Virus record (IMG/VR): IMGVR_UViG_3300042197_004373
Location: 1-31,888 of that record
Reading direction: 5' to 3' (one strand)
From: a virus
DNA length: 31,888 nt
Shown: piece by piece, positions 5,857 to 21,857 of the stretch
Layout: each line of letters opens with the position of its first letter
Position numbering within the stretch: the stretch's first letter is position 1
Notes under the pieces: generated by a model
Databases searched by the model: none
What the model was told of the DNA's origin: nothing
The model's input: only the letters and a program-made list of their open reading frames with translations
Position numbers and translations under genes: made by a program

Positions 5857-6750
5857 TTATGTTCCCCACTCGTTCTTGTAAATATCGACCTGAAGTCTGG
5901 GGCTGTAGCGCCACCCTCTTTCGAGTGCTAGATTTGCCACTTCCTGCACATTGAGATTGTACACCTGTGGAACACCGCCCGCGGGCATGAGATATATGGG
6001 ACCACCAAATCCGGCATCTCTATATTCTGCCACAGCACGTTCTGCATCCTCCACATCCTGCCGTGTGGCCACCACGAACTTGAGATAGGTCGAACCCACC
6101 AGTTCATATTCTTTCACAACCTTGGGCTGAATCGCATTCTCCCAGCTCTCTCCCGAGCAGGGCAGTTTGGGGCTAACAGAAAAAGTGAGCCGATCATAAT
6201 CACGACCCATGCGGGTGAAATCTTCAAACAGATAATCACGCACCTGGCTGTACAAGAACTGGCTGCCATTGGTCTCGATGGTGACATCACGCAAGCCCTT
6301 CTTCCTTAGTAGATCCAGCAAGGTAGGATACAGTTGCTGATAGCCCAGCAAAGGTTCGCCACCGGTGATGATGAAATGTATCTGGTCGCTGAAGTCTTGA
6401 TTCCAGGTTCCATTGGGTAACAAATCATTGATTCGATCCGCGATAGTATAAACATCTTCCTGTTGGTTGAATCGTTTGAACTCGGGATAGATAGATGCGT
6501 AGGTATCGCAACCTGTTGTGACCAAGGGTAAATCCTTGAATTCTTGATAACGGCCCGGATCCTTCTCTACCATCTGGATGATTTCTGTCACTTCGGGATT
6601 ATGACCTTCGATCCGCTCGTCTCTGGATCGTCCAAACTTGCGGCAGCGGAAGTTGCAACCAAACGTGCGAAAGAATATCGAGGGCACGCCGGCCCACTTG
6701 CCTTCGCCCTGAAGGCTGTAAAATATTTCAGTATAGGTTATTTTTTCCAT
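5857..6750 (-). CDS. queE: QueE-like 7-carboxy-7-deazaguanine synthase (radical SAM)
   Basis: The 297-residue product starts MEKITYTEIFYSLQGEG; the SLQGEGKWAGVPSIFFRTFGCN block (about 12-33) is the QueE signature. QueE turns 6-carboxy-tetrahydropterin into 7-carboxy-7-deazaguanine using S-adenosylmethionine and a 4Fe-4S cluster. The SAM-binding FIITGGEPLLG is at 127-136. The cluster motif is unusual: Cys32-x3-Cys36 is present, but the third Cys of the normal CX3CX2C seems to be Cys81 in GCDTYAS, matching the WCDT of cellular enzymes after an insertion of about 42 residues. The length (cellular forms about 210-245) fits that. The start at 6750 lies eight bases after the glycosylase stop, without a clear Shine-Dalgarno. 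FolE, QueD-like and DpdA partners are in the window; QueC is not. Confidence 0.88.
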   Translation of the reverse strand: MEKITYTEIFYSLQGEGKWAGVPSIFFRTFGCNFRCRKFGRSRDERIEGHNPEVTEIIQMVEKDPGRYQEFKDLPLVTTGCDTYASIYPEFKRFNQQEDVYTIADRINDLLPNGTWNQDFSDQIHFIITGGEPLLGYQQLYPTLLDLLRKKGLRDVTIETNGSQFLYSQVRDYLFEDFTRMGRDYDRLTFSVSPKLPCSGESWENAIQPKVVKEYELVGSTYLKFVVATRQDVEDAERAVAEYRDAGFGGPIYLMPAGGVPQVYNLNVQEVANLALERGWRYSPRLQVDIYKNEWGT

Positions 6751-6758
6751 GAGATTAT

Positions 6759-7190
6759 TTAGGCGGTAATGAAAATTTCTTCCTGCAAATATCGTTTCAA
6801 TTCTTTGTCTGTGGGTTTGATGGTATAATTGCCTTTGAAAAAGATTTCGTATGAATCTGACCCATACTTGCCGATACCATACAACATTGTAGCATCTTGC
6901 TGATCCCAAGTCAAGAAATCTTCAGTCATCCTTTGAAGGCGTTTGCACCGCACATTGACCATGCCCAGAGGCCAGATCACATCCTTGATGTCCTGCTCCT
7001 GGGCGCGCCGGAAAAACAAAGCATTGGGCCAATGAGACAGGAATAAGGGCAGCACCGTTTTCACAGGTTTGCGACCAGTCTGGTTCAGCATGATCACGGC
7101 CACCATGTGCTGCCAGATCAGTTCTGATCGAGTGATTCCGGGCAACTGCTGTTGCACCATGAGATCATCACGCAAGGGCTTAATTGTCAT
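6759..7190 (-). CDS. MBD4-like HhH-GPD DNA glycosylase
   Basis: The 143-residue protein aligns well, by eye, with the glycosylase domain of eukaryotic MBD4. It has LIWQHMVAVIMLNQTGRKPV (24-43, like the MBD4 helix with LNRTSGK), PLGMVNVRCKRLQRMTEDFL (74-93), the helix-hairpin-helix LYGIGKYGSDSYEIF (103-117), and KPTDKELKRYL, where Asp128 matches the catalytic Asp of MBD4 (PEDHKLNKY). There is no C-terminal Cys cluster, unlike Nth and MutY. MBD4 removes T or U from mismatches with G, especially at deaminated modified cytosine. Here it could remove deaminated or otherwise altered bases from phage or host DNA; the substrate is inferred. It is ATGA-coupled to the radical SAM gene and sits eight bases before queE. 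Confidence 0.85.
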   Translation of the reverse strand: MTIKPLRDDLMVQQQLPGITRSELIWQHMVAVIMLNQTGRKPVKTVLPLFLSHWPNALFFRRAQEQDIKDVIWPLGMVNVRCKRLQRMTEDFLTWDQQDATMLYGIGKYGSDSYEIFFKGNYTIKPTDKELKRYLQEEIFITA

Positions 7191-8464
7191 ATTAGGCTCA
7201 TAGAATAGTTTATCTCTTTGAACTGTTTGACTAGATCTGCGTAAAGAGGATGTGTTGGATTGTAAATATTTTTCCGATCAAATTCTTCTTGTGACCAGGT
7301 ACCCCAATTCCACATTTTTTGCCAATTGATATGTTTGATATCCAGTTCTTTGCATAAAGTCACAAACATGGGAATCTCTTGGTAGTTATCCAACTGTACC
7401 ACATAATCTGCAAAGAGTTGGCATCTTGGTGCATACTGATCAATTTGTTGGCGCAACCACCGCACATTTTCCAGCAATTGGTTCCATTTACCGCCGACAC
7501 GAACTTTGTGATAGGTGTCAGCGGTGGCAGCATCAAAACTCACACGCATTTGACTGATCGTTGGCAATAGCGAGAGCACTAAATCAGATTTTTTTTTCAG
7601 ATAGCTGCCATTGGTCTGGATATGATGCGATATCATGGATTTTTTGTCCGAGGATGCTATGTATTGTAAAAGATCCAGATACACATCACTGATAAAAGGT
7701 TCTCCTCCACACCACCGTATGCAAACTGGATGCTCTGTGATTTGATCAATGATCATGTGTTTGATAAGCCCAACTAGACGATTGTTAACAGCCCGCATCA
7801 CATGATTTTTGTTGTTGTTGATCAATTCAGTTCGGCAACTGGGGCATCGGAAGTTGCAAGTAGCATCAAAATCCAAAATTATGTGAGAAGGTATACGATC
7901 TATATACAGTTCCGGACGCCTGTATAATCGAGCAGGTTGAATCTCTGGACCTTGAGACTGGTATTCATCAGTGGGTATGGGAGAAAAAAAACCACAGATA
8001 TGATTGTTACAATATGTGTATCTTCCTTCAAGGATCTCTTGGCGAATACTCAGACACAAGTCATTGTTAAGCAAGTCGTAAATGCTGGTCGTTTGCTGCA
8101 GATTACCCACAAATTTTGGTATCCAGCTTGGACTGTGGCAAATGAACACATCACCATTTGCATTTATACCCATGGTGTTCCAAGGTACTCGGCAGTGCGA
8201 GCCTGTGTATTTTTTATCAAAAAATATCTGCCTTTGGCGGCGCTGATTGGCCAAAGCCAATTGATCTCCTTGCAAAACTTGTGTTTGATAGTTTTCTGCC
8301 ATCATCCGGACAAAGTCTTTGACTTCTATCGCGATAGCCGGATTGGAACCAAGATCACCATTGATGATTTCTTCATAGCTGGGCCAGTCTGGCCCAGCGA
8401 ATCGCTGATAATCTTTCCTGCCTATCATGGTTTTCAATTGTTTTTGTTGCTCAAAATCAATCAT
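7187..8464 (-). CDS. Radical SAM protein with N-terminal SPASM-like domain
   Basis: The 425-residue protein has the radical SAM cluster motif FDATCNFRCPSC (Cys203, 207, 210), the SAM-binding RWCGGEPFIS (251-259), and core strands such as SHHIQTNGSYL and MRVSFDAATADTYHKVR. In front of the core, residues 90-160 look like a SPASM domain that normally follows it: CRVPWNTMGINANGDVFICHS, then GNLQQTTSIYDLLNND and YCNNHICGF (Cys91, 109, 152, 157 as candidate auxiliary-cluster ligands). SPASM enzymes modify peptides, sugars or other substrates; none can be named here. It lies between an SGNH hydrolase (overlap of 8 bases) and the MBD4-like glycosylase (ATGA). Confidence 0.85.
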   Translation of the reverse strand: MIDFEQQKQLKTMIGRKDYQRFAGPDWPSYEEIINGDLGSNPAIAIEVKDFVRMMAENYQTQVLQGDQLALANQRRQRQIFFDKKYTGSHCRVPWNTMGINANGDVFICHSPSWIPKFVGNLQQTTSIYDLLNNDLCLSIRQEILEGRYTYCNNHICGFFSPIPTDEYQSQGPEIQPARLYRRPELYIDRIPSHIILDFDATCNFRCPSCRTELINNNKNHVMRAVNNRLVGLIKHMIIDQITEHPVCIRWCGGEPFISDVYLDLLQYIASSDKKSMISHHIQTNGSYLKKKSDLVLSLLPTISQMRVSFDAATADTYHKVRVGGKWNQLLENVRWLRQQIDQYAPRCQLFADYVVQLDNYQEIPMFVTLCKELDIKHINWQKMWNWGTWSQEEFDRKNIYNPTHPLYADLVKQFKEINYSMSLI

Positions 8465-9333: not shown

Positions 9334-9717
9334 TCACTTAGTGATAGAAGAACGTCTTACAAAGTCTTGCAGCCTGGGTGGTTCCCAGTTCGCAGGTTTA
9401 AGTACCTTGCCGTCTTCTCGCTTGGTCACGCGACCTGTGCGCGGATCTACTTTGTCAAAATTGCTTCGCATGACCTCTTTCCAGGCGCCATCAACATCCA
9501 CACCAAGGCTGTGCAAGGCGCCGGCTGTGACTACCAAGAGGTCAATCAAAGCATCTAGCTGTTCCACAGTGTCTCGGTCCTCCAGTGCATCCTGTAGTTC
9601 CTGCACTTCTTCCGTGATGAGATTGCAGTACATTTGGTACTGCGATTCCGCATATTCATCCGTGATCTGTCCGCAAGCCCGCATGAATTTGCGTTGATCG
9701 TTCAATATATCACTCAT
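9334..9717 (-). CDS. MazG-like NTP pyrophosphohydrolase
   Basis: The start at 9717 forms an ATGA overlap with the phosphoribosyltransferase stop and gives 127 residues (MSDILNDQRKFMRACGQ...). The metal-binding helices are NLITEEVQELQDAL and EQLDALIDLLVVTAGALHSLG, the EExxE and D-x2-D pattern of MazG/HisE-type all-alpha pyrophosphatases. The C-terminal VMRSNFDKVDPRTGRVTKREDGKVLKPANWEPP is typical of phage and bacterial proteins annotated as phosphoribosyl-ATP pyrophosphohydrolase-like. It probably cleaves a non-canonical or excess (d)NTP. Coupling to a phosphoribosyltransferase supports a nucleotide role. Confidence 0.85.
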   Translation of the reverse strand: MSDILNDQRKFMRACGQITDEYAESQYQMYCNLITEEVQELQDALEDRDTVEQLDALIDLLVVTAGALHSLGVDVDGAWKEVMRSNFDKVDPRTGRVTKREDGKVLKPANWEPPRLQDFVRRSSITK

Positions 9718-10211
9718 TGATGTTGCTCCTCTGGATTCCAGCGCCTCCACCATTCCTCCCAGGGAAATACGATCCACTGGGGATCAGAGGCCTTGTTGAT
9801 GTTTTCTGCTGAGTAATCAGGAGTATGGATGCTGTTACTGCTTTCGTTGTCATACAGCACTGCCACACGAACATTATTGCCCCAACGCTCTGCGATGTCC
9901 CAATCCTTGCGGATCCAGTTAAAAGTGGCACCGCTATCGTTGATGTCGTCGACGATCAAGATGTTTTTGAGACCGGCAGCATCTTCCTGCATCCACAAAT
10001 TGCTTTCGCAATCTTCATTGCCATCTCTCAAGCTCACTTTGAGTGCGTGCATGGGCACATCTAGATACTGGCTGATGAGATTGGCTGGTGTGAGTCCACC
10101 TCTGGTAATACCCACCACATAATCCGGTACCCAGCGATCGTGCCACATCTGGCGCACTAGCTCTTGCACTTGGCGCTGCACATCGTTCCAACTCACATAG
10201 ATTTTTTTCAT
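9714..10211 (-). CDS. Purine-type phosphoribosyltransferase
   Basis: The 165-residue protein has the type I PRTase fold: WVPDYVVGITRGGLTPANLIS (27-47, the substrate flexible-loop region and PPi loop) and NILIVDDINDSGATFN (the PRPP-binding motif, with two acidic residues). Its length and the WIVFPWEEWW ending fit bacterial xanthine/hypoxanthine (Gpt-like) phosphoribosyltransferases. It would join a purine-like base to PRPP to make a nucleotide. In a phage with 7-deazaguanine genes an unusual base substrate is conceivable, but this is speculation. It is ATGA-coupled to both the epimerase before it and the MazG-like gene after it. Confidence 0.85.
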   Translation of the reverse strand: MKKIYVSWNDVQRQVQELVRQMWHDRWVPDYVVGITRGGLTPANLISQYLDVPMHALKVSLRDGNEDCESNLWMQEDAAGLKNILIVDDINDSGATFNWIRKDWDIAERWGNNVRVAVLYDNESSNSIHTPDYSAENINKASDPQWIVFPWEEWWRRWNPEEQHQ

Positions 10212-11185
10212 GCGGCCTTATCTAGAGTTCCAGATTGTACCATATCAGCGATCCAATCATAGGTTTGTCGGAGTCCCAGTTCGAGATTGTCAGCAGGTGC
10301 CCAACCGATTGTGCTTTGGATCAATTCATTGTGGCTGTTGCGCCCCATCACGCCCTGTGGACCGGGTATGTTCTTTATTGTAACAGGTTTAGCAGCGATA
10401 GTCGATATCAGTTGGACCAGATCGTTTATAGAGATCATCCTCTCCGAACCCAGATTCAAGGGATGATCGCAATTGGAGGCCTGGATACGATGGATGCCTT
10501 CGATGCATTCGTCGATATAAAGAAAGCTGCGAGTTTGGTTGCCCGGACCCCATACCTCTACTGTACCGGTGCTCTCTGCTACTTTCCTGCACAGCGCAGC
10601 CGGAGCTTTTTCTTTGCCGTTGTTCCAGGAACCTAGAGGACCGAAAACATTGTGCAATCTTGCTATCCTCACACGAAGACCATAGTTGCGACCGAAACTC
10701 ATCCACAGGCGTTCTGAAAAAAGTTTCTCCCAGCCATACTCTGAATCAGGTTCAGCAGGATAAGCAGATGCTTCGCTAAGGAGTGGATTATCAGGATCCA
10801 GCTGATTGTAGGCCGGATACATGCAGGCTGACGAAGTGTAGAACACATTCAGCACACCTTTTTTCACCATTTCTTCCGCGATGTTGAGATTGATCATGGC
10901 ACTATTGTGCATGATGTCGGCATCGTTTTCACCGGTGAAGATATAGCCGGCACCACCCATGTCCGCGGCCAGCTGGTAAACTGTGTCGATATCAGCGGCG
11001 ATAAGTTTCCTTACATTAGCCTGCTCACGCAGATCCATTACATGGAACTCATCGGCATCTGTGTCGCGGTATTCGTGCTGTTTGATATCAGCACCAATCA
11101 CGTAATGACCTTGCTTTTTCAAACTGCTCACAAGGTGTCCACCGATGAATCCTCCTGCTCCGCAAACCAATATTTTTTTGTTCAT
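10208..11185 (-). CDS. GDP-mannose 3,5-epimerase-like SDR enzyme
   Basis: This 325-residue extended short-chain dehydrogenase has the NAD-binding GAGGFIGGHL (9-18) and the catalytic YxxxK (Tyr150, Lys154 in EYGWEK). Beyond the generic family it matches GDP-mannose 3,5-epimerase closely: QLAADMGGAGYI (71-82), SSACMYP with Cys121 at the acid/base position, RLHNVFGPLGSW, GKEKAPAALCRK (with the second acid/base Lys) and NQTRSFLYIDECIEGI. The plant enzyme turns GDP-mannose into GDP-L-galactose; bacterial and phage relatives may act on related GDP-sugars. It is ATGA-coupled to the methyltransferase and to the PRTase. It likely supplies a sugar for the glycosyltransferases nearby. Confidence 0.87.
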   Translation of the reverse strand: MNKKILVCGAGGFIGGHLVSSLKKQGHYVIGADIKQHEYRDTDADEFHVMDLREQANVRKLIAADIDTVYQLAADMGGAGYIFTGENDADIMHNSAMINLNIAEEMVKKGVLNVFYTSSACMYPAYNQLDPDNPLLSEASAYPAEPDSEYGWEKLFSERLWMSFGRNYGLRVRIARLHNVFGPLGSWNNGKEKAPAALCRKVAESTGTVEVWGPGNQTRSFLYIDECIEGIHRIQASNCDHPLNLGSERMISINDLVQLISTIAAKPVTIKNIPGPQGVMGRNSHNELIQSTIGWAPADNLELGLRQTYDWIADMVQSGTLDKAA

Positions 11186-11880
11186 TTTTCGTCCTTGATA
11201 TAAAGTGGCTGCACCTGCGAAATTTCGGATCTCAGTGTGAGATTCGGTAATGCAGTGCGGCTACCCACAAACACCGCCCTGGTATTTAAGTGTGTTTGTT
11301 TACCCCAATCTAAAGGAAATTCAGGATGATTGGGTTGAGTGGTTGTTATATAGCCATGTCCCCAGTAACGCTTGAGGCGTCCGAGTATCCAAGATCGGCT
11401 AGGGCGGCAAGCTCGGCCCACAGTGCTCTGATCATTCACGGCCGGATCACTGACGAGATACAGGGTCTCATCCTGATCCGTGTTTACAAACAGCTCTAGC
11501 ATGATCTGTCCGGTGCAGATCTTGGCCAACATGGCTAGAACTCGATCTGGATCACCCACATGATACAGCAAACCATAACAGTAAACAAGGTCAAATGAGC
11601 CCAGCCTCGCAAGATCGGCTTCTTGCTCGAGATCGATCTGTTGCACCGGCACTCCGGGCCATCGCCTGCGGATCTCTACCACGTTGTCGGCCCGGCCATC
11701 GCTAGAGATCACATCGCAGCCTCGGTCCAGGAAAAAACCTGTGTGCAATCCTATGCCCGCACCTACTTCCAGCACACGCCGTCCGGGCCCGATATCAAGA
11801 CCCAATGAATCAAGATGCTCCTGCCGGGCCAGATTGATCGCCTGCGCGTTGGGTGCTAAAAAACAATCAAACTGGCTCAT
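11182..11880 (-). CDS. Class I SAM-dependent methyltransferase
   Basis: The start at 11880 (MSQFDCFLAPN) is preferred because it lies just after the upstream stop with AAGGAC ten bases before it; an ATG at 11904 would overlap. The 232-residue protein has motif I RVLEVGAGIGLHTGFFL (about residues 35-51), an acidic motif II (VISSDGRADNVVEI) and FDLVYCYGLLYHVGDPDRVL as motifs IV-V. The C-terminal half (AVNDQSTVGRACRPSRSWIL..., GHGYITTTQPNHPEFPLDW) is typical of methyltransferases in glycan clusters. The substrate is probably a sugar or glycan. It is ATGA-coupled to the epimerase. Confidence 0.82.
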   Translation of the reverse strand: MSQFDCFLAPNAQAINLARQEHLDSLGLDIGPGRRVLEVGAGIGLHTGFFLDRGCDVISSDGRADNVVEIRRRWPGVPVQQIDLEQEADLARLGSFDLVYCYGLLYHVGDPDRVLAMLAKICTGQIMLELFVNTDQDETLYLVSDPAVNDQSTVGRACRPSRSWILGRLKRYWGHGYITTTQPNHPEFPLDWGKQTHLNTRAVFVGSRTALPNLTLRSEISQVQPLYIKDEK

Positions 11881-11884
11881 TCTA

Positions 11885-12670
11885 TCAAGTCCTTGAAAAA
11901 TCAAACCAAGCCCAGGTGCACATGGGCGCTTCTCCGCTGTCTAGCAACTGCTGCCATGGTTGCTGAGTAGGTATGTTGATGTGCTCGGACTTCCGTACTT
12001 TGGCCCGATCATCGGCAGTTTCTTTGTGGGTATCGAGTTTGCCTTTATAATCTAAAGCCCGGCAGATGTCCACATGAACGATCTGATAGCGTGATCCCCA
12101 TGAATAGGTATGATAGTGTCGCCGCATCAAGCTCATCATGAGGTTATCGCACTGGGCCGCGTGCCCCACGCAGAATGCGAGATCTTCGTGCACGAAATCC
12201 GGATTGAACGGAGTCTGCAGCACATAGGCGTCGCAGAAATCGCCTTTGAGCCAATTCATCGCCTCAATGCCAAACAACGGCTGGTCTTCCGTGCCGTCGG
12301 CCCTGAGATTGAACCTGGTGCATACCATGGCCTTGTGAGGATGGCCCCGTGCGAAAAAATCTCGGTCTATGTTGGGCCAATATAGACCTTGTAGATATGT
12401 GTCCAGATTGATAATGATGATCACGCTGTTGGCCTCGATGTGTTGATTGGCATGATCGATCACATCGCGGAACTCCATGCGCCGGTTCAGCAACATGGTC
12501 TCGATCCTGGGATCTGATGGCAGATCCTCGGCATGATCGGCGTGTTCGAGAAAAATTTTGTATCCATCAATCCATGTGTGTGCGAAGTTTTTTTTCATGC
12601 ACAGTGCATACTCCTCGCGCCTCCCACCATGGTTGTCTCGATAATAATTGAAGTACAGATATTTTTTCAC
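11885..12670 (-). CDS. Putative glycosyltransferase (GT-A-like)
   Basis: A GTG at 12670 overlapping the upstream stop as GTGA gives 261 residues and is preferred to the ATG at 12694, which lies deeper in the upstream gene. The protein starts VKKYLYFNYYRDNHGGRREE, continues with a helix, an NRRMEFRDVIDHANQHIE segment, and a hydrophobic strand ending in a possible metal/nucleotide site (VIIIINLDTYL). The layout recalls glycosyltransferase-like proteins of marine phages and bacteria in which the strand ends in NSDIYF-type acidic residues. The donor and acceptor are unknown. It sits between FkbM and another methyltransferase, in the centre of the glycan block. Confidence 0.6.
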   Translation of the reverse strand: MKKYLYFNYYRDNHGGRREEYALCMKKNFAHTWIDGYKIFLEHADHAEDLPSDPRIETMLLNRRMEFRDVIDHANQHIEANSVIIIINLDTYLQGLYWPNIDRDFFARGHPHKAMVCTRFNLRADGTEDQPLFGIEAMNWLKGDFCDAYVLQTPFNPDFVHEDLAFCVGHAAQCDNLMMSLMRRHYHTYSWGSRYQIVHVDICRALDYKGKLDTHKETADDRAKVRKSEHINIPTQQPWQQLLDSGEAPMCTWAWFDFSRT

Positions 12671-13347
12671 AACAGACTCGGATCTATGAACCAATCATCG
12701 TGTCCACTGAGTTCAGGCACGATATGGTGATATCCGTTGGCCAGCATGATGTTTTTGATTTGCTGCCGCCGGGGTTCGAGATAGTTATGTTCTATGCTGA
12801 AGATGGCCGCCCGATGCCGATCAAAATCAAAAGCCCCTAGTATGGCATGTTCGGAGCCTTCGGTGTCCATGCTCATGTAATCTAAACGATCTGGCGCCTG
12901 ATGCTGATCTAGCAGGTCATTGAGGCTCACTGTTTGCACAAGGTAAGTGGCACCTGTGCTGGCCTGGCGTCGTGCTGTGTGCATCTCATTGCTGTCAAAG
13001 AATTCAGTAAGCCCACTGAGACCCAGCTCGGTCAAGGTCTCTTTGAACTCCAGATGCTGACCGCTGACCTCATGCACTGCCCGTAGGTCGATCGAACAGG
13101 TTCGGTTCTGCAACAATGCCGCATGGAAGACGCGGCCGGGTTCGCATACTATGCCTCGCCAGCCTAGTTCCTGCTCTAAAACCGCGGTATTGCTGTATTG
13201 CACTCCATACATCACACCAAATTCAACGAAATATCCCCCATGTTTGTGGCCAGTCAGCGCCATTACCATGATGTCTTGGCCAAGCTGGCTATGGGTAGCG
13301 CCCGTATATGTTGATGCGAATTCAAGAATTCGTTTGGTCACGTCCAT
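12667..13347 (-). CDS. FkbM family methyltransferase
   Basis: The 226-residue protein matches FkbM-type methyltransferases: HSQLGQDIMVMALTG (about 19-33), GGYFVEFGVMYGVQYSNTAVLEQELGWRGIVCEP (37-70, the SAM-binding motif I and following acidic residue), and LDYMSMDTEGSEHAIL (about 155-170), where the Asp-Thr-Glu-Gly signature is clear. It ends GYHHIVPELSGHDDWFIDPSLL. FkbM enzymes methylate hydroxyl groups, often of sugars in capsules, lipopolysaccharide or secondary metabolites. It abuts the nucleotide-sugar dehydrogenase without a gap. Confidence 0.9.
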   Translation of the reverse strand: MDVTKRILEFASTYTGATHSQLGQDIMVMALTGHKHGGYFVEFGVMYGVQYSNTAVLEQELGWRGIVCEPGRVFHAALLQNRTCSIDLRAVHEVSGQHLEFKETLTELGLSGLTEFFDSNEMHTARRQASTGATYLVQTVSLNDLLDQHQAPDRLDYMSMDTEGSEHAILGAFDFDRHRAAIFSIEHNYLEPRRQQIKNIMLANGYHHIVPELSGHDDWFIDPSLL

Positions 13348-14496
13348 CTATATTTCTACCTCCCAAACTGCTTCGGTTATGTCTTGTTTGGATTTGAATT
13401 CTAAAAAAGGCTGGTATTGCATTTCTAACTCGCGACAAAAATTGCCGTCTAACATATCTGATGGTTGGATGAAAACCCGATAGCCCATCGCCAGCAAATA
13501 TTCACAAAATTTCAGCTGCTGGCTTTCCTCCAAGATGTCAGTACCGGGCTTGTAGGTGATACTGGGCATATAGAAGGGCAGACCCTGATGGTTGGCTCGG
13601 ATCGACTGCTCTGCCAAAAACCTGGTATGATCTTGATTGAACTGATCCACGATCTGGCCTAGGGCAAAATTAGATCCCACGCTTGCAGCGTAATGAGCGA
13701 ACGCTCGATTATCCCGAGGCAGACAAGGACCACCATAACCAAAGCCATACCGCATATAATGCGCGCCCACCCTGGTGTCTGTACCGATAGCCGACAAGGC
13801 CGGTTCCACATCACGGTCAAGACCGCTGCGGATCAGCACTTCACCCACCATGTTGGCATAGGAGATCTTGGTAGTGAGATAACAGTTCACAGCAATTTTC
13901 ACAATCTCGGCTGCTGTGAGGCTCATGGCATGCACGTTGGGTGTGACAGTCTGTATGTCATTGTAAAGCAGGCGATAACATCCTACATCAGTAGCCTCCT
14001 CGGCGCCAATCAATACCATGTCGGCCTGCTCAAGATCTCGGATGATAGAACCTTGGGCTATGAATTCTGGATTGTAAAGGACCCTGATGCCACGATCTCG
14101 CAGACGATCCTGCATGCGTTGACAATCACCGGGATTTGTGGTACATCCTATTACCAGGAACTTGTGGACCAGATCAAAGTCGCACTCACCAATGTCATCC
14201 GCCACTCGTTGCACCGCTGATATGTCATAGCTACCGTCCGGCAAGCTGGGAGTGGCCACCATCACATAGATGATGTCGCTGCTGGCAATGACCGATCTGG
14301 TGTCTGTGGTGAACGTGATATCACAATCTTTGAGCATGGCAGCCACACCCGGCTCGGCTGTGTGTATCTCTCGGCGTTGCAGGCCAGCGACGTAATTGCT
14401 GCGTATGTCCGAGCCCATGACCTTGTGCCCAGCTCGATCCAACAGCAGGGCGAAACAGATCCCTAACCTACCAACTCCTATCACACCTATGTTCAT
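13348..14496 (-). CDS. UDP-glucose/GDP-mannose 6-dehydrogenase family protein
   Basis: The 382-residue protein starts MNIGVIGVGRLGICFALLLD, an N-terminal NAD-binding Rossmann motif. AAEIVKIAVNCYL (195-207) carries the conserved Lys200 and Asn204, and GFGYGGPCLPRDNRAF (251-266) carries the catalytic Cys258. TPSLPDGSYDIS and YNPEFIAQGS are further family signatures. Such enzymes oxidise a nucleotide sugar at C6 in two NAD-dependent steps, for example UDP-glucose to UDP-glucuronate. The C-terminal UDP-binding domain (GLPFYMPSITYKPGTDILEES) is somewhat shortened, so which sugar is used cannot be told. It provides an acidic sugar to the neighbouring glycosyltransferases. Confidence 0.9.
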   Translation of the reverse strand: MNIGVIGVGRLGICFALLLDRAGHKVMGSDIRSNYVAGLQRREIHTAEPGVAAMLKDCDITFTTDTRSVIASSDIIYVMVATPSLPDGSYDISAVQRVADDIGECDFDLVHKFLVIGCTTNPGDCQRMQDRLRDRGIRVLYNPEFIAQGSIIRDLEQADMVLIGAEEATDVGCYRLLYNDIQTVTPNVHAMSLTAAEIVKIAVNCYLTTKISYANMVGEVLIRSGLDRDVEPALSAIGTDTRVGAHYMRYGFGYGGPCLPRDNRAFAHYAASVGSNFALGQIVDQFNQDHTRFLAEQSIRANHQGLPFYMPSITYKPGTDILEESQQLKFCEYLLAMGYRVFIQPSDMLDGNFCRELEMQYQPFLEFKSKQDITEAVWEVEI

Positions 14497-15279
14497 CTAT
14501 GCTCCTCTGCGGTGTGCCGTGGCCATGAGATGCCAACCCAGATGCCGTTCCAGTACAGAGAACATCTGTTTGGGCATGTGCTGGAACCAAGGCTGCAACA
14601 CATATTCTTTGCGTTTGTAGGCTTCGATCTCGTAGGGAAAGATGTGATCTTGCTCTATGGTTGCTATGTCAAAGCCAGAGCCTATGAGATCCACCAATGC
14701 TTCTCGGGTGTAGGTATGTACCACAGGACAGCCCCATTGGGCTTCGGGTTGATCCAGTCCAGCCTCGATCATGTAGTTTTTCCAGCTGTCGCGGGCATAC
14801 ACCATGATCTTCAAGGTGCCGCCTGGCCGCAGATAATCACACACCTGTGCAATAACTCGGCCGGGATCGGGGGTGTGATGTATCACTCCCCAAGAGTAGA
14901 TCATGTCATATTGGTTTTTTGGTAAAAAGTCGGAAAGCTCTTCGGCATTGCCTTGATAGAAATGACCTTGCAATCCATACACATCAAATCTCTGCTGTGT
15001 GAGAGCGAGGCTCTCACCACTGAGCTCTACTCCCGTATACTTCGCGCCAAATCGGGCAAAGTTTACCGCGGCCGTGCCAATGCCGCAACCTATCTCCAGC
15101 ACGCTCATTCCGCGCCAGCGGCTGAACTCACTGAAGTTCAAGATGTGGGGCTCGGCCTGGAACTTTCTCAACTCAACCTGATCAAAGTATTCTCTTGATC
15201 CCAAAGAGTGATCGCTGTGCCTCACATTGCAGGGCTGCCGATCCCAGTATTGTTTCACTGTCTCGATCAGCTCAGTCAT
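14497..15279 (-). CDS. Class I SAM-dependent methyltransferase
   Basis: A product of 260 residues with a complete methyltransferase core: motif I MSVLEIGCGIGTAAVNFARFG (about 58-78), YTGVELSGESL as motif II, YDMIYSWGVIHHTPDPGRVIAQV as motifs IV-V, and LRPGGTLKIMVYARDS as post-motif. The N-terminal VKQYWDRQPCNVRHS and the C-terminal extension resemble UbiE-like methyltransferases found in carbohydrate clusters and in marine phages. The acceptor is likely a sugar or small molecule. Its stop directly abuts the start of the dehydrogenase gene, and its start overlaps the GT2 stop (ATGA). Confidence 0.87.
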   Translation of the reverse strand: MTELIETVKQYWDRQPCNVRHSDHSLGSREYFDQVELRKFQAEPHILNFSEFSRWRGMSVLEIGCGIGTAAVNFARFGAKYTGVELSGESLALTQQRFDVYGLQGHFYQGNAEELSDFLPKNQYDMIYSWGVIHHTPDPGRVIAQVCDYLRPGGTLKIMVYARDSWKNYMIEAGLDQPEAQWGCPVVHTYTREALVDLIGSGFDIATIEQDHIFPYEIEAYKRKEYVLQPWFQHMPKQMFSVLERHLGWHLMATAHRRGA

Positions 15280-16082
15280 TTGAACACTGTGAGCTGGCGA
15301 TTGGGATCATACTCTGCGCTGGTCATCTTGGCCCAGGGGTCCTGGATGCCAGCGACCACACCACGGAACCAAGGCATATCATGACCCTGTTGTTCCAGCA
15401 GGTCGCAGATCCGGGCCGCGTCCGTCATGCGCCGATTGCGCCAGTTCATGTGATTGAAATCTCTGGGATCTTCGGGACGGCCCTCCAGCATGGGACGGTT
15501 CTTCCAGGTGTCGTCTCCGTTGTTGCCGGTAAGATCGAATCGGTCGTGTGTTACTGTGACGTCAATGTTGTGCATGATGTCCAGCAAGTAGGCTATCTGG
15601 CTCACCCAAGAGTCAGTGAGCTGATGTGCCGACACATAACCAAACAGATCGTACCAGGCCCTGGGCACTATTGGGAATATGGCATAGGGATGCTGCTTGT
15701 GTGTGGGTATCCTCAGCACCCGGAAGGCTTTGACTTCACGGATGCGCTGATCCCAGTCCGCGCTCTCCATGATAGCGTCATCGCCCCAGAAAAACAACCA
15801 CTGACCTTGGCTGTGACCGGCCAGATGATTGATGTACTCATTGAGCCTGATATAGCCCAGTCGTTCAAAACCAAAACAGGTGTATTGTGATCCTGCCTCA
15901 TCGATCATGCCGGCCACATGATCTTGGAACCATTGGAACGATGCGGCATCGTCGTGGTCAAAAGCCAAGAGGATTTCTATGCTGGTGGGATCACGGGCTT
16001 GTTCCATGACGCTCTGGATACTGGTCTGCAGTGCCGTGGTCCTGCCTCGGGTGGGCAACAGGATCGATATATCAACCTTCAT
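15276..16082 (-). CDS. Glycosyltransferase family 2-like protein
   Basis: The start at 16082 (MKVDISILLPTRGRTTALQ) is chosen because it begins exactly at the family's first strand; the longer frame would add 34 unrelated residues that overlap the QueD-like gene. The 268-residue protein has the GT-A hallmarks: ILLPTRGR for the nucleotide-binding start, LLAFDHDDAASF (acidic residues at about 38-41) and FFWGDDAIMESADWD as the metal-binding DxD-like region. It would transfer a sugar from a nucleotide donor in the cytoplasm; donor and acceptor are unknown. It overlaps the QueD-like gene by 11 bases. Confidence 0.85.
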   Translation of the reverse strand: MKVDISILLPTRGRTTALQTSIQSVMEQARDPTSIEILLAFDHDDAASFQWFQDHVAGMIDEAGSQYTCFGFERLGYIRLNEYINHLAGHSQGQWLFFWGDDAIMESADWDQRIREVKAFRVLRIPTHKQHPYAIFPIVPRAWYDLFGYVSAHQLTDSWVSQIAYLLDIMHNIDVTVTHDRFDLTGNNGDDTWKNRPMLEGRPEDPRDFNHMNWRNRRMTDAARICDLLEQQGHDMPWFRGVVAGIQDPWAKMTSAEYDPNRQLTVFK

Positions 16083-16605
16083 AGATCGCGGAGTTGCCTT
16101 CGTGCTCAAACACTTCTGCCGACCGTAGCCGCACCCCTTGCCCCACTGGATATCGTGGTGCGTATTCCAGGATCTGATCTCCATGTATGAAATGCCAGGT
16201 CTCGTCGGCCTGGAAAGTTTTCAGTATATCCGCCATCACATGATAGGCCAGTTCCGCGAACTTTTCGCAGCCTACCGCTTCTACTAGCCTTATATCACAC
16301 ACACCGCCTTGATCCTGGAGCCCCAGCTCGGCCATTTTTAAAAACAAATCGAGATGAGGATCATCTTTGGCTATCACGAGGGTGTGATCAAACATGTGTT
16401 CGGCCCAGTCCTTGAAAGCCTTCAGTCCACCAAAATCCATCACCCAGTTTCGGTCATCGAGGGTGTTTGATTCGAACATCAAACGGATACCGATCGAGTA
16501 GCCATGTAGCAGGCTGCAATGGCTGTGGGTGCTACGCCATTGACGGAAACAACACGAAAGACCTCGATCATTGCCATAAGTTTTTGTTGAAACATAAGTT
16601 GCCAT
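16072..16605 (-). CDS. queD: QueD/6-pyruvoyl-tetrahydropterin synthase-like protein
   Basis: AGGAG stands six bases before the ATG at 16605 (an ATG at 16608 is the alternative), giving 177 residues. QueD makes 6-carboxy-tetrahydropterin from dihydroneopterin triphosphate, the step between FolE and QueE. Family marks are CFRQWRSTHSHCSLLHGYSIGIRL (19-42), with Cys30 and His34 at the catalytic Cys and first HxH position, NWVMDFGGLKAF (53-64) and FDHTL (72-76). The usual HGH zinc motif reads HGY here (Tyr36), while two extra His (27, 29) lie upstream, so zinc binding may be rearranged. A central insertion (LDLFLKMAELGLQDQGG) is longer than in bacterial QueD. It follows the HIT gene after 73 bases. 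Confidence 0.82.
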   Translation of the reverse strand: MATYVSTKTYGNDRGLSCCFRQWRSTHSHCSLLHGYSIGIRLMFESNTLDDRNWVMDFGGLKAFKDWAEHMFDHTLVIAKDDPHLDLFLKMAELGLQDQGGVCDIRLVEAVGCEKFAELAYHVMADILKTFQADETWHFIHGDQILEYAPRYPVGQGVRLRSAEVFEHEGNSAIYEG

Positions 16606-16678: not shown

Positions 16679-17104
16679 TTATTTATCTGTAGGGTTTTTA
16701 TAGCCAGTTTTCTTGTAGTTCGCCTGTCCTGGTATCACGCCACGCACACCACCTACGGGATCCTCCGAATCTCCCGTGCGACGAGGAATAAGGTGCACAT
16801 GCGGATACCGAACAGTCTGGCCAGCTTCCGCGTTGCGATTCATGCCTACATTGAATCCCGCACATTCACCGCGCCGGATCATGGCCTCGCCCATGAGATA
16901 GGCCATGCGGAAAGCTTCTGCGATGTTGCCGGGAGCATCTCGTTCAGGCACGAACAGCAGATGACCCGGGGTCACAGGATAACGATCTTGGTAAACCTTG
17001 ACATCGCCTAGATCCATGTGCATGTCCTGCCAGGGTGCCACACCATCTATCAAGGCCTCTTTGAGGCTGTAATGTGTGAGATACTGGGGAGCCGGTTCTG
17101 GCAT
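16679..17104 (-). CDS. HIT (histidine triad) family protein
   Basis: The ATG at 17104 overlaps the lipoprotein stop (TGATG) and gives 141 residues. The histidine triad itself is RYPHVHLIPRRTGD at about 109-122 (HVHLIP), preceded by the family's DRYPVTPGHLLFVPE (40-54) and GFNVGMNRNAEAGQ (83-96). HIT enzymes are nucleotide hydrolases or transferases acting on nucleoside-phosphoramidates or dinucleotides. HIT and QueD-like genes lie side by side here, which may point to a shared role in nucleotide modification, but this is inference. A possible promoter (17254-17282) lies inside the gene before it. Confidence 0.88.
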   Translation of the reverse strand: MPEPAPQYLTHYSLKEALIDGVAPWQDMHMDLGDVKVYQDRYPVTPGHLLFVPERDAPGNIAEAFRMAYLMGEAMIRRGECAGFNVGMNRNAEAGQTVRYPHVHLIPRRTGDSEDPVGGVRGVIPGQANYKKTGYKNPTDK

Positions 17105-19494
17105 CAAAAATCCTTGCGATAGTTCAACTGCATGCAATAACTGCCAAGATCATTCATTGCTCCAGAAAGACTCCATGACTGATCTTGATAGCGCCAGCGC
17201 CGCTGGAACCCGGCAAATGCCACTGGTTTGTTCCTGATCGCAGTGCTGTATCTAGTGTACTGTACTTGTCCCTGTTGGTCAACTCCTGTGGGCAAGTTCA
17301 TGCTTAGAGAACCAGATATGATGGTAGGTTGGATGCCACCGTACAAGCTCCAATCTCGGTCTTGCCATCCTGCCATGGTACTCACACTCCACAAAGGGGT
17401 GATGCGATCAATCAATCCGGTCTGGAAACGCGTGGTGGTCTGCATCACGCTACCTTGCACGAAAGCACCGTTTGACCAATGCCGTCCTAGGGTGGTATCC
17501 ACCATCACGCTGTCTTGGATAGCGCCAAACACTCCTGAAAAACTCATCCAGGGACTGCCTGGCATGCGTGCTACGCCCAGATTGATGTCCCAATCTTGCG
17601 TGATGCCCATCCTGCGTGTGCTCACCGAGCTAGCGAATCGATCTGAGGTGCGTCCGGTCACACTGAATCCCAGGTTCTGCACAGTGGCATCGCCCACCAT
17701 GCGGCTGCTCCAGTTCTGCTGGGGATCGGTTGTGCTCAATATATGATTCGCTGTGAGACTCTGGGCTGGTTGGCGCATCACAGAAAGATCTACCCGGAAA
17801 TCTCGGTTTAGATCATCCGTTGCGGTGATGCTTTGTAAATCTTTTCGGTCAAATCCAGGCACCGAGATATGTCCTAGCAATGATTGCCGTCGACCGTTGA
17901 TGGATAAGGCCAAGTCACCCACGGGTGACCATACGCGTTCAAGATCGATCACTGGTACACCTTCGATGAAGCCACTGGCGGTCCGCGCCAATACCTCGTT
18001 GGCTTCCGCAGAACTTAACCAGGGCCAGACCTGCTGCAGGGACGATATCGTGGCCGGCGCTGTTGCAGTGCCCATGCGTCCTATCAGGCTGGCATACACT
18101 GCTATACGAGCTTCACCATCTCGCTCGTATTCCACTCCACTTACCAGGTATCTGGTGTTGTCAGGTCCAGCCACTATGGCGATGGGTTGATTATTACCTG
18201 CACCCGCTGTCATGCTTTTAATCTGCTGGGCGAAATTATCAAACACCTGCACATAAGATTCTACAAACTTCCCTTCTCGGGTGGCCAGCAACACCGAGGT
18301 GCTAGATTGTCCAGTATAATCGGTGGTGCTCATGAAGATGTCCAGCAGGCCATCGTTGTTGACGTCTATCAGCGCGGGATTGTAGGTCACCGTTTTGCCA
18401 TGTTCGAATTTGGCCAACACTGAATCGGTGACATCTGTAAATGAACCGCCACCGTCATTCCTAAGGAACTGCACTTCGGTCCAACCATGTACGTTGCCGT
18501 TTTTCGGCATAGTGGAAAACACCACCACATCTGGTCGTCCGTCAGAGTTAAAATCCATTGCTATGTTGCGAACAGCATGTGGACTCTGTGCTGTCCTGTC
18601 CACGATGCCATCCCACTTTGGCAGGAAAAACCTGTCTGTGGGCAACACCGCTATCTGTTCCATGAACAGTTCGCCATTGGCGATGCGAGGTCGGAAAAGG
18701 ATGGTATCTGAATTGGAACCACCTTGTCCGGGCCCGTCAGTCATGACCACTGTCACAGTACCGTCCGACATGTAATCAGCGGCGCTGAGTCCTGCGCCGA
18801 CCGCGCTGCCAAGCACGCAACAGGCCGGAGAACGGTATACAGTGAAATTACCGGTGCTTGATCCCAATAACAATGCCGATCCGGTCTTGAGGATATCTTT
18901 GATCCCATCACCGTTGAAATCTGCTACTACACTATCATGGCTGTGTAGAACAGCGCCAAAATCTATGGTGGTGCGCCGGAACTGGCTCACCCCACCAACT
19001 GTAGCGACCGTATTTTCTAGCATCACGCTGGGACCGTTGTGGTTGGGTGTGTCCGTGAAAGTGGCCAGGAACACATCATCGAATCCGGATCCATTGAAAT
19101 CACCGAAGTTGATTCGGAAGCCTCCTGTGTACACATTGTCCCCAGAGGCAAACCACGACGCTGTCTCATTGGCGAATCGACCAGTGTTGAAGCCAAATAC
19201 CTGCACCTGGCTGTTGACCCAGTTCTGTCCGGTATAATCAAAGGCCACATTCGACCATAACACTTCGTCGCTGCCGTTGCCATTGAGGTCACGTGTGTAT
19301 ATCTCTGTCAGCGGAGTACGATACTGGGATGGCTGATGATGCGGTTGGAAGGAGTTGACGCGTACCGGTGCATGGTATGGCACATCAGGTCTCACTACCG
19401 AACCCAATGTGGCAGACGGCCCTCCACCGCCACCGCCACAGCCTGTGATGCTCAGTGCCACTGCGATAGCCAAACCGGTTCTATGGAATTGCAT
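17104..19494 (-). CDS. FG-GAP repeat lipoprotein with beta-rich C-terminal domain
   Basis: This 796-residue protein begins with a signal peptide and lipobox (residues 1-19, ...SITGC, Cys19), then a Gly stretch. FG-GAP/VCBS-like repeats with calcium-site Asp follow: DLNGNGSDEVLW (69-80), DFNGSGFDDVFLA, DFNGDGIKDIL, DFNSDGRPDVVVFS and DVNNDGLLDIFM. They point to a beta-propeller like that of integrin-type or adhesion proteins. The last 200 or so residues are beta-rich (TTLGRHWSNGAFVQGS..., LSMNLPTGVDQQGQVQYTRY) and end NYRKDF, like the closing strand of outer-membrane or autotransporter domains. An exported lipoprotein is unusual for a phage. It has its own promoter (19524-19552) and strong AGGAG, and would decorate the infected cell. 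Confidence 0.8.
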   Translation of the reverse strand: MQFHRTGLAIAVALSITGCGGGGGGPSATLGSVVRPDVPYHAPVRVNSFQPHHQPSQYRTPLTEIYTRDLNGNGSDEVLWSNVAFDYTGQNWVNSQVQVFGFNTGRFANETASWFASGDNVYTGGFRINFGDFNGSGFDDVFLATFTDTPNHNGPSVMLENTVATVGGVSQFRRTTIDFGAVLHSHDSVVADFNGDGIKDILKTGSALLLGSSTGNFTVYRSPACCVLGSAVGAGLSAADYMSDGTVTVVMTDGPGQGGSNSDTILFRPRIANGELFMEQIAVLPTDRFFLPKWDGIVDRTAQSPHAVRNIAMDFNSDGRPDVVVFSTMPKNGNVHGWTEVQFLRNDGGGSFTDVTDSVLAKFEHGKTVTYNPALIDVNNDGLLDIFMSTTDYTGQSSTSVLLATREGKFVESYVQVFDNFAQQIKSMTAGAGNNQPIAIVAGPDNTRYLVSGVEYERDGEARIAVYASLIGRMGTATAPATISSLQQVWPWLSSAEANEVLARTASGFIEGVPVIDLERVWSPVGDLALSINGRRQSLLGHISVPGFDRKDLQSITATDDLNRDFRVDLSVMRQPAQSLTANHILSTTDPQQNWSSRMVGDATVQNLGFSVTGRTSDRFASSVSTRRMGITQDWDINLGVARMPGSPWMSFSGVFGAIQDSVMVDTTLGRHWSNGAFVQGSVMQTTTRFQTGLIDRITPLWSVSTMAGWQDRDWSLYGGIQPTIISGSLSMNLPTGVDQQGQVQYTRYSTAIRNKPVAFAGFQRRWRYQDQSWSLSGAMNDLGSYCMQLNYRKDF
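17254..17282 (-). promoter_or_regulatory. Candidate sigma70-like promoter inside the lipoprotein gene
   Basis: TTGACC (17282-17277), a 17-base spacer and TACACT (17259-17254) followed by AGAT, on the minus strand. The -10 ending CTAG matches the sites at 19524 and 655. It lies in the last 180 bases of the lipoprotein gene and would drive the HIT and QueD-like genes. A coding-region location makes chance more likely. Confidence 0.35.
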
Positions 19495-19558: not shown

Positions 19559-20296
19559 CTATCGGGGTGCGAAATCCTGTTGCAATTTGATATTGTCCAT
19601 GAATTCTTTTTTCACACCCGGATCCGCCAGGAACGCACCCCGCAACACTGTGGTCTGGGTGAGGCTAGAATGGGCCATGATGCCGCGATTTTCACAGCAT
19701 CCATGTTGCGCCTGGATATACACACCCACATCTTCGCTACCTGTGACCTTCATGATCTCGCGCGCGATGTCGTTGCAGAGTTCTTCCTGCAAGGTCCCAC
19801 GCCGGCTGCACCATTGTGCGATGCGTGTGTACTTGCTGAGGCCTATGAGCTTTTCTGCAGCCAGAATGCCAATATAAGCAACGCCAACAACGGGTTGGTG
19901 ATGATGAGAACACATACTACGAATTTCACTGCGAACCACAAGCATGCCCTCATAGCGGTCCTCGCTGTGATTAGGAAACGCTGTGCAATCGGGCGCTGGA
20001 TCATATCTACCTCCCATTATCTCGTTAAAGTACATCTTGGCCAATCGGCGTGCTGTGCCTTGGCTGTTGGGATCGGTCTCGCGATCGATCAGGAGCCGAT
20101 CGAGCACCAGTTCAAATGCTTCCGTGGCTTCATCGATCAAGACCTTCTTCGCCTCCGGGTACACATAGTCCGAGATGTTGTCTCCGGCCCAGAATCTCTT
20201 GCCTTGTGACTTCATATTAGCACGTATGGCATCGCTGAGATAGGTTCCTTTGTGGTCGTCTTTTGGTTGTGCGTGTTCGTTAAATTTTGTGATCAT
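19559..20296 (-). CDS. folE: GTP cyclohydrolase I
   Basis: The 245-residue protein carries the FolE core: QGTARRLAKMYFNEIMGGRY (79-98), SEIRSMCSHHHQPVVGVAYIG with Cys129 and His131/132 as zinc/catalytic residues (123-143), KLIGLSKYTRIAQWCSRRGTLQEEL (149-173) and IQAQHGCCENRGIMA with Cys200 as the third zinc ligand. FolE turns GTP into dihydroneopterin triphosphate, the first step to folate and to 7-deazaguanines. With QueD-like, QueE and DpdA proteins in the same window, the second use is more likely. GGAG stands eight bases before the ATG. The N-terminal 50 residues (NEHAQPKDDHKGTYLSDAI...) are longer than in some bacterial forms. Confidence 0.95.
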   Translation of the reverse strand: MITKFNEHAQPKDDHKGTYLSDAIRANMKSQGKRFWAGDNISDYVYPEAKKVLIDEATEAFELVLDRLLIDRETDPNSQGTARRLAKMYFNEIMGGRYDPAPDCTAFPNHSEDRYEGMLVVRSEIRSMCSHHHQPVVGVAYIGILAAEKLIGLSKYTRIAQWCSRRGTLQEELCNDIAREIMKVTGSEDVGVYIQAQHGCCENRGIMAHSSLTQTTVLRGAFLADPGVKKEFMDNIKLQQDFAPR

Positions 20297-20329: not shown

Positions 20330-20908
20330 TCATGCTATAATCCGGATCTCCCTTAGATCCGGATAAGGGTGGTATTTAGGTGTTTCATCTACAGTGGACA
20401 ACAATTCTAGTCCCCGTTCAGCTTCTTCTGGGGTAGGCCGATAGTGATAGCCTACTCGAAAAACCTGTTGCTGTTGCCAGGGCGTGATGGCGAGATTTCT
20501 TCCATCGTATCTTTGCTGCAACATCACACCATAGGCCTCGGCATCATCAAGCAGTATAGCACCCCCACGACCTATCTGTAAAGGCTTTCCGTGGCCAAAA
20601 CTAACACATTGCATCATGCCCGTGCGATACATATCTCGTTCTAATCTGCGAGCGGAATCCCAGATCCGGCTGCCATGGAACCGATATTCGCCGGTCCAAT
20701 CCTCTGGCACCAGACGATATTCGATACCCAATTTGTGCATGGTCATGGGCACTGAAAGATAGGTAAAAGCCGTGAAAGCAAGATTGGCGGGCTGTTCGTA
20801 TCGGAGGCACAGTTCTATCGCATGGGTACAGCAATCGGTCATTACTACATAGGGTGCGCCGGTATAAACAGATAGAGCAGATTCAAATTTTGCGATCTTA
20901 TCGAACAT
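20330..20908 (-). CDS. Short DegT/DnrJ/EryC1-like aminotransferase
   Basis: The start at 20908 (MFDKIAKFESALSVYTGAPY) is chosen because the longer frame runs through the end of galE; the ATG at 20923 is the alternative. The 192-residue protein shows the large-domain signatures of sugar aminotransferases: VVMTDCCTHAIELCLR, NLAFTAFTYLSVPMTMHKLG, WDSARRL (a DxA-like PLP contact) and CVSFGHGKPLQIGRGGAILLDD, with Lys at the PLP position. Full-length DegT enzymes are about 370 residues; the C-terminal small domain is missing here. It could work with a partner subunit or have a non-standard role. The gene is next to GalE-like epimerase in the sugar block. Confidence 0.78.
   Translation of the reverse strand: MFDKIAKFESALSVYTGAPYVVMTDCCTHAIELCLRYEQPANLAFTAFTYLSVPMTMHKLGIEYRLVPEDWTGEYRFHGSRIWDSARRLERDMYRTGMMQCVSFGHGKPLQIGRGGAILLDDAEAYGVMLQQRYDGRNLAITPWQQQQVFRVGYHYRPTPEEAERGLELLSTVDETPKYHPYPDLREIRIIA
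20340..20364 (-). other. Perfect 10-base-pair stem-loop at the end of the aminotransferase gene
   Basis: Arms ATCCGGATCT (20340-20349) and AGATCCGGAT (20355-20364) are exact inverted copies around a five-base loop. They lie in the last codons of the aminotransferase gene, just before folE. There is no T-run after the stem on the minus strand, so a terminator is not clear; an RNA-processing or attenuating hairpin is as likely. Confidence 0.5.
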
Positions 20909-21857
20909 ACCATTGCCAGGCATGCTGGATGATCTCGCGGAGATTGAAACGAGGCACCCATCCTGTGATGAGATTGAATCGTTCGCTGTTGGCTGTGAGC
21001 ACAGCCGGATCACCTGCCCGCCTGATGCCGGCTGCACATCGCAGTTCGCGGCCGGTAACGGATTCTGCCGTGGTGATTATCTCGCGATTGGATGCCCCTA
21101 CTGATGTGCCAAGATTGTACACTCCACTGGGCACCACATCATAGATAGCCATATGATGTGCCAGTGCAATATCTTCCACATGCACATAGTCTCTCACGCA
21201 GGTGCCATCTGCTGTGGCATAATCCGTACCGTGCAGTGTGAAATCTGTGCTGTCTCTCAGGCTTTCCAGCACACGGGCGATGATATGGGTGGCCGCAGGA
21301 CCTTGTCCGTGCCTGTTCTGGCTGTCTGCACCGCAGGCATTGAAATAACGGAACGCTACATAGTCCAGACCATAGGCCCGGTGATAGGCGGCCAGCATGT
21401 GTTCTATCATGAGCTTGCTCTCGCCGTAAGGACTGACAGGCAAAGGTGGATCAGACTCTTGGCAAGGTGTGATCACTGGTTCACCGTACACAGCAGCCGA
21501 ACTTGAAAAAATCACCCGGGTGCGAGGCACAGCCTTGACCACATAGTCCAGAAGGATCTTGGTCTTGACGAAGTTGTTGCGATAATACAGCTCTGGATCG
21601 GTAACCGATGGACCCACCAAACTGGTACCAGCACAATGGATCACGGCCGCGGGTTTGTGCTCCCGGATCAGTTCTAGGCTGGAACTGCTGCTGAAATCCT
21701 CTTGATAGAATCGATTGGGCACCGATCTCAAGTGCTTGGGCAGGGCCTTCATGTCCACTCCGATGATCGGAATGTCCTGATCTCGTAATACCAGCATGGT
21801 CTCACCACCGATGTAACCGGCGGCACCCGTGACTATCACAGTTCGAGGTTTGGTCAT
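20898..21857 (-). CDS. galE: UDP-glucose 4-epimerase-like (GalE) SDR enzyme
   Basis: The 319-residue protein begins PRTVIVTGAAGYIGGETML, the NAD-binding site, and has the active-site triad SSSAAVYG and YGESK (Tyr/Lys). RYFNACGADSQNRHGQGP, HGTDYATADGTCVRDYVHV and the GVYNLGTSVGASNREII region are specific to GalE. GalE interconverts UDP-glucose and UDP-galactose (or the N-acetyl forms). Its product could supply the glycosyltransferases here. It overlaps the GT-B gene stop by one base (TGATG) and the aminotransferase start by 11 bases. Confidence 0.92.
   Translation of the reverse strand: MTKPRTVIVTGAAGYIGGETMLVLRDQDIPIIGVDMKALPKHLRSVPNRFYQEDFSSSSSLELIREHKPAAVIHCAGTSLVGPSVTDPELYYRNNFVKTKILLDYVVKAVPRTRVIFSSSAAVYGEPVITPCQESDPPLPVSPYGESKLMIEHMLAAYHRAYGLDYVAFRYFNACGADSQNRHGQGPAATHIIARVLESLRDSTDFTLHGTDYATADGTCVRDYVHVEDIALAHHMAIYDVVPSGVYNLGTSVGASNREIITTAESVTGRELRCAAGIRRAGDPAVLTANSERFNLITGWVPRFNLREIIQHAWQWYVR

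Follow-up and report, generated by a model that had tools for sequence, protein, structure and literature searches.

A conserved family of MBD4-like DNA glycosylases in phages and its base-modification neighbourhoods

Why does a phage carry a relative of MBD4, which the literature knows from animals and plants as the enzyme acting on deaminated 5-methylcytosine, and why does the gene lie directly beside one for 7-deazaguanine synthesis? The question is raised by a 31,888-base virus record (IMG/VR IMGVR_UViG_3300042197_004373), which we call the window and in which nearly all likely genes lie on the minus strand. The original prediction read the open reading frame at 6759–7190 (ATG start, stop codon included in the coordinates) as a mismatch glycosylase, coupled to and co-transcribed with queE, that would either guard modified DNA or attack host DNA. 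The gene and its two direct neighbours are the following.

7187–8464, minus strand: radical SAM/SPASM protein, upstream of the glycosylase (Pfam Radical_SAM and SPASM)
6759–7190, minus strand: MBD4-like glycosylase, 143 amino acids (phmmer, AlphaFold2 model, dN/dS)
5857–6750, minus strand: queE, 7-carboxy-7-deazaguanine synthase-like radical SAM protein, 8 nt downstream (phrog_2076, 2.8e-47)

The start of the glycosylase gene overlaps the radical SAM/SPASM gene by 4 nt (ATGA), and its stop is followed after 8 nt by the queE start, TAA ATAATCTC ATG. Several NCBIfam QueE models also match this latter gene below their cut-offs, the best with 9.2e-15. Judged from the spacing, co-transcription of the glycosylase with queE is plausible; a scan of the operon for promoters and terminators gave sites no more numerous than in shuffled sequence. 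The gene is under purifying selection, with a dN/dS of about 0.044 against a 91% identical relative (L001). Because of this value, and because relatives are found on at least 587 IMG/VR stretches (E ≤ 1e-3), we do not regard the reading frame as a product of chance.

To which glycosylase type does the protein belong? A phmmer search against all PDB sequences matched the MBD4 glycosylase domain with E = 1.1e-17 over residues 26–134. Fifteen distinct MBD4 sequences were found and only MBD4 was highly significant, the best other HhH-GPD match being endonuclease III with E = 0.85. The Pfam HhH-GPD model scored 20.9 bits, below its cut-off of 26.2, and no PHROGs family matched the protein. An AlphaFold2 model computed with only 29 sequences of the window's own clade was poor (pLDDT 70.7). 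When marine, Bradleyvirinae-type and GTDB relatives were joined, giving 49 phage, metagenome and MAG sequences, the mean pLDDT rose to 93.6. Foldseek placed MBD4 at ranks 1 to 16 for this model (TM about 0.80), with MUTYH, endonuclease III and Mig behind and far weaker E-values for MutY and endonuclease III. VIA gave the same order: its top 16 were all MBD4 (Z 17.4–18.2, the best aligning 129 residues at 1.8 Å rmsd), followed by MUTYH as the next family (Z 13.8, 4.5 Å). The MBD4-type domain of the original prediction is thus recovered by sequence and by predicted structure, and the model falls into no other HhH-GPD class. From alignment and model, we conclude that the product of 6759–7190 has the fold and active site of an MBD4 glycosylase.

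The shared fold extends to human and mouse MBD4 (MED1) and to plant MBD4L (Z 18, 1.8 Å). In common with MBD4, the phage protein has the helix-hairpin-helix GIGKYG(N/S)DSY, the catalytic aspartate and the Val/Gln/Tyr pocket, and both are devoid of the iron-sulfur cluster and the lyase lysine. The phage protein is a glycosylase domain only, 143 amino acids long, and shares the absence of a methyl-CpG-binding domain with plant MBD4L (PMC6728418). Mig of Methanothermobacter (PDB 1kea), a small glycosylase of the same HhH-GPD superfamily that acts on mispaired thymine, is more distant (about 16% identity, Z 13.2, 4.6 Å) and, unlike the phage protein, has an iron-sulfur-type cysteine motif. Endonuclease III (Nth) is likewise a superfamily member and, like the phage protein, has Gln at the intercalating position, but it possesses a lysine nucleophile and an iron-sulfur cluster, both of which the phage protein lacks. 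We rejected an Nth identity on the missing lysine, the missing [4Fe-4S] cysteines and an nth model score of 13.2 bits at a cut-off of 211.7. Membership of the UDG superfamily (PF03167) was rejected as well, the glycosylase fold being HhH-GPD. The window does encode an ordinary endonuclease III elsewhere.

24087–24728, minus strand: second HhH-GPD gene, endonuclease III with iron-sulfur cysteines and lyase Lys (TIGR01083 1.4e-55, PF00730 1e-24)

When this protein was used as a phmmer query, only the MBD4-like protein was matched in three large relatives (G009, G022 and G023) and nothing in a fourth (G006), so that the endonuclease III copy seems to be a rare extra in the lineage.

For the active site we aligned 122 distinct proteins of the phage family with human MBD4, whose reference sequence is identical to PDB 4dk9. 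The key positions in the window are these.

7152–7154, minus strand: codon of Gln13, equivalent to human Q449 (Gln in 118 of 122; human role from PMC12073362)
7080–7082, minus strand: codon of Gln37, which stands in place of the human arginine finger R468 (alignment of 122)
6849–6884, minus strand: helix-hairpin-helix LYGIGKYGSDSY, residues 103–114 (alignment)
6807–6809, minus strand: codon of the catalytic Asp128, equivalent to human D560 (Asp in 121 of 122, the remaining row gapped)

Human MBD4 reads the flipped thymine with V448, Q449 and Y540, uses D560 to activate the water and contacts the 5' phosphate through K562 (PMC12073362). The equivalents of Q449, Y540, D543 and D560 are kept in 118 to 121 of the 122 phage proteins. 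Val12, equivalent to V448, is Val in 106, and most Bradleyvirinae-type members have Phe there. The helix-hairpin-helix reads LYGIGKYGSDSY in the phage protein and LHGIGKYGNDSY in human MBD4. Within it Tyr109, the counterpart of Y540 (Tyr in 120 of 122), occupies the position of the lyase lysine, which is lost in monofunctional enzymes (PMC8307549); with Tyr at this place a monofunctional enzyme is to be expected. The whole protein contains a single cysteine and therefore no iron-sulfur loop. The claims that the MBD4 helix-hairpin-helix and Asp128 are kept and that the iron-sulfur loop is missing thereby held up in the alignment.

The same cannot be said for the word mismatch. R468 is the arginine finger of human MBD4, which pinches the phosphate and bonds to the estranged guanine, and the human R468Q and R468L variants have nearly lost their T:G activity (PMC12073362). 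At this position the phage proteins carry Gln (93), Leu (24), Cys (4) or Met (1), and Arg in none of the 122, in contrast to both T:G enzymes that we checked, MBD4 and Mig, the latter having Arg in the matching LLRRTT motif. Further differences from MBD4 are a shorter C-terminal tail and the K562 position, which is mostly Glu (Glu in 106, Lys in 12). By alignment, then, the phage family has kept pocket and catalytic residues and lacks the mismatch sensor. Since R468 is replaced by Gln or Leu, T:G specificity is not to be assumed. In the original reading the enzyme would, like the human one, genuinely act on T:G (and U:G) mismatches and correct thymine misincorporated across from G or 7-deazaguanine when the phage replicates, which would agree with the overall MBD4 fold and the pyrimidine pocket. 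Gln also works at the plug position in MutY, and the intercalating residues of HhH enzymes vary (PMC12073362). Set against the human variants and the complete absence of Arg, we nevertheless consider this reading doubtful.

We turn to the neighbouring genes. Besides queE, two further genes of the window belong to 7-deazaguanine chemistry.

19559–20296, minus strand: folE, GTP cyclohydrolase I (PF01227, 2.1e-38)
25812–27341, minus strand: TGT/DpdA-like protein (its translation shows the motifs ADSGGFQ and FDC)

GTP cyclohydrolase I provides the first 7-deazaguanine step. DpdA, QueE and FolE are 7-deazaguanine DNA modification genes of phages (PMC6884629), and the window shares FolE, QueE and a TGT/DpdA-like protein with these systems. 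The TGT/DpdA-like protein has no Pfam or PHROG match; PA5oct, MIJ3, Phosso and other jumbo phages contain unannotated homologues. For QueC we make no claim: the PF06508 matches were weak, and one near queE resembles, by sequence, an NAD-synthase-type ATPase. A phage family B DNA polymerase and a 5'-3' exonuclease are likewise encoded in the window. At 9714–10211 and 9334–9777 (minus strand) lie phosphoribosyltransferase and PRA-PH-like pyrophosphohydrolase genes, which many relatives likewise have close to queE, folE and the glycosylase. Long runs of genes at 10208–16184 and 20330–23044 (minus strand) resemble sugar-nucleotide enzymes, glycosyltransferases and methyltransferases. The 796-residue protein at 17104–19494 (minus strand) has a lipoprotein-like start (signal-like, Cys, poly-Gly) and, by eye, repeats resembling FG-GAP/VCBS, which is odd for a phage.

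How tight is the bond between glycosylase and queE? Among records of the window's clade QueE is present in 18 of 21 and a DpdA-like protein in 17 of 21; for the marine clade the DpdA-like count is 7 of 8. Of 80 window-clade loci, 45 have queE and 27 have folE inside the fetched flank, always on the same strand. In 19 larger records with both genes, which are related, include near-duplicates and so provide no strict test, queE and glycosylase lie within 2 kb of each other in 9 and within 20 kb in 16, at an expectation from uniform placement of 0.6 and 5.0. The two genes can be as close as 8 nt and as far apart as 129 kb (in G009). As a control we took 11 records, each 80 kb or longer, that had been retrieved by the window's DNA polymerase and not by the glycosylase: queE and the DpdA-like gene were found in 11 of 11 each, the glycosylase in 6. 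The 7-deazaguanine genes are hence the constant element and the glycosylase an optional neighbour; the 7-deazaguanine pathway does not need it, and it is absent from five of these eleven relatives. Additionally, phages outside the window's lineage carry the glycosylase without queE or a DpdA-like gene. A specific queE–glycosylase unit was therefore rejected as a general rule. Of the proposed coupling, the 8-nt adjacency and the frequent proximity stand; as worded, it is overstated.

The glycosylase is carried by many aquatic large-genome phages and a few unrelated ones. Around cyanophage S-TIM54 there is a marine group of 50 loci, and 13 loci make up a group of Bradleyvirinae type. A search of 50,697 phage records gave just 8 with a match, for which the annotations read hypothetical, endonuclease III or ENDO3c, and our literature search found no published description of phage MBD4-like proteins. 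No relatives were found on plasmids. Six MAG contigs carry one. A chromosomal origin in Marinisomatota was rejected, none being found among 245 genomes: the sole strong match (G034) comes from a phage contig of 335 kb (G034:C57), which has phage polB, clamp and DpdA-like genes. An MBD4-like gene at L089:6001–6390, in a MAG of Ca. Actinomarina, has flanking genes that look cellular (CbiM, a Cys/Met-metabolism enzyme, MgtE and prolyl oligopeptidase) and clusters with phage sequences in the tree; flanks and grouping together suggest a transfer from phage into the bacterium. The placement of human MBD4 in this tree is not fixed because of long branches.

In other lineages we find other modification genes. 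In the Bradleyvirinae carriers AXL1, DoCa6, YB23 and Donnerlittchen the genes that come after the glycosylase encode a nucleotide pyrophosphohydrolase, a thymidylate synthase (TS)-like enzyme, dCMP deaminase and DHFR. The TS-like proteins of all four, and that of S-TIM54, have Asp at the position of E. coli TS N177, as does T4 dCMP hydroxymethylase. In the TS family N177D marks dCMP-specific enzymes. From this residue we predict the Bradleyvirinae and S-TIM54 proteins to be dCMP (hydroxy)methylase-like, which suggests modified cytosine in these phages; S-TIM54 has ThyX in addition. Such genes of Bradleyvirinae and S-TIM54, at L085:16400–17338 and L250:3898–4740, are annotated as thymidylate synthase or ThyA and carry N177D. 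In one further locus (L153) a T4-type DNA alpha-glucosyltransferase gene (E 1.5e-30 to the T4 enzyme) overlaps the glycosylase gene, and in another (L152) a 5-hmdU DNA kinase helical domain (32.7 bits, cut-off 25) lies 3.7 kb away. Judged by their predicted enzymes, the TS-like settings and these two loci are ones of C5-modified pyrimidines. T and 5-hydroxymethyluracil (5hmU), which deamination or synthesis would yield in such settings, are known substrates of MBD4 when opposite G (PMC12073362). No readable modification gene was seen among the neighbours in L150 and L249, and a search of four large records from the two main clades found no dCMP hydroxymethylase, glucosyltransferase or hmU kinase. 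With no C5 methyltransferase in 33 IMG/VR records either, repair driven by 5-methylcytosine finds no support in the window's lineage. Of the 64 phage records that have the TS-like gene itself, most lack the glycosylase; given this and the five of eleven queE-bearing relatives without it, modified DNA does not require the glycosylase. The expected association with base-modification genes is present and broader than queE, as a descriptive result for the records examined across lineages.

Could the protein simply stand in for a general uracil-DNA glycosylase, with no special link to modification and with neighbours that merely mark a nucleotide-metabolism region? PF03167 UDG was detected in none of 26 records (the window and 25 others), the neighbours include ordinary nucleotide genes (phosphoribosyltransferase, PRA-PH and exonuclease), and the apparently cellular Actinomarina copy sits among cellular genes. 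The host, however, normally supplies UDG, so that the need for a mere stand-in is not obvious, and several unrelated modification cassettes adjoin the glycosylase gene. We keep this reading as a possible one, at low confidence.

An offensive role, in which bases would be excised from un- or differently modified DNA of the host or a rival phage, feeding nucleotides to the phage or excluding competitors, is very improbable. Two articles on bacterial restriction and antiviral glycosylases indicate that such enzymes can serve as weapons (PMC10273834, PMC11078745), and a 5'-3' exonuclease gene lies near the glycosylase in many loci. Fold and pocket nevertheless match a repair enzyme specific to pyrimidines that are damaged or mispaired, of which host DNA contains few, and the 143 residues come without a toxic partner or recognition domain. 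For the suggested attack on host DNA we found no supporting evidence.

With a probability of about 0.6, we favour an accessory, monofunctional MBD4-type glycosylase that limits damage from pyrimidine deamination in phages whose DNA is modified and which have no UDG of their own. The substrate and role that we infer for this accessory enzyme are as follows. A pyrimidine would be flipped out of the helix into the pocket of Val12, Gln13 and Tyr109, where Asp128 would activate a water and cut the glycosidic bond. The resulting abasic site could pass to an AP endonuclease or to an endonuclease III-type lyase such as the window encodes. The likeliest substrates would be U and 5-hydroxymethyluracil, formed by deamination of C and 5hmC respectively, and possibly T derived from 5-methylcytosine; U and 5hmU opposite G appear the safest guess and T:G doubtful. 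The modification pathway would be that of 7-deazaguanine here (FolE, QueE, DpdA-like) and of C5-modified pyrimidines in other lineages. 7-Deazaguanine leaves the Watson-Crick face unchanged, and action opposite this base is for that reason possible. The modified base in 7-deazaguanine phages is a purine, and the link to pyrimidine deamination is therefore indirect. That the enzyme guards the modified phage genome is what the gene context points to.

One may also speculate about a distinct MBD4-fold class that dropped R468 because the estranged partner or the target base is itself modified, and that polices hypermodified phage genomes. Such an enzyme might act opposite 7-deazaguanine and remove bases that are deaminated or misplaced, or it might clear what deamination makes of 5hmC and its derivatives, and it could be a modification-linked repair enzyme acquired separately by phages of different base chemistries. 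We hold this to be rather unlikely.

In summary, the MBD4-like character of the protein was recognized correctly from the outset, and its assignment as a mismatch enzyme coupled to queE was overstated. With the arginine finger naturally lost, the family offers a ready test of the role of this residue. That the family is found on aquatic phage contigs by the hundred, in phages with various types of base-modification genes, suggests an advantage of self-encoded pyrimidine repair for phages whose DNA is altered. The MBD4-like family is conserved in phages and of interest for the repair of modified genomes.
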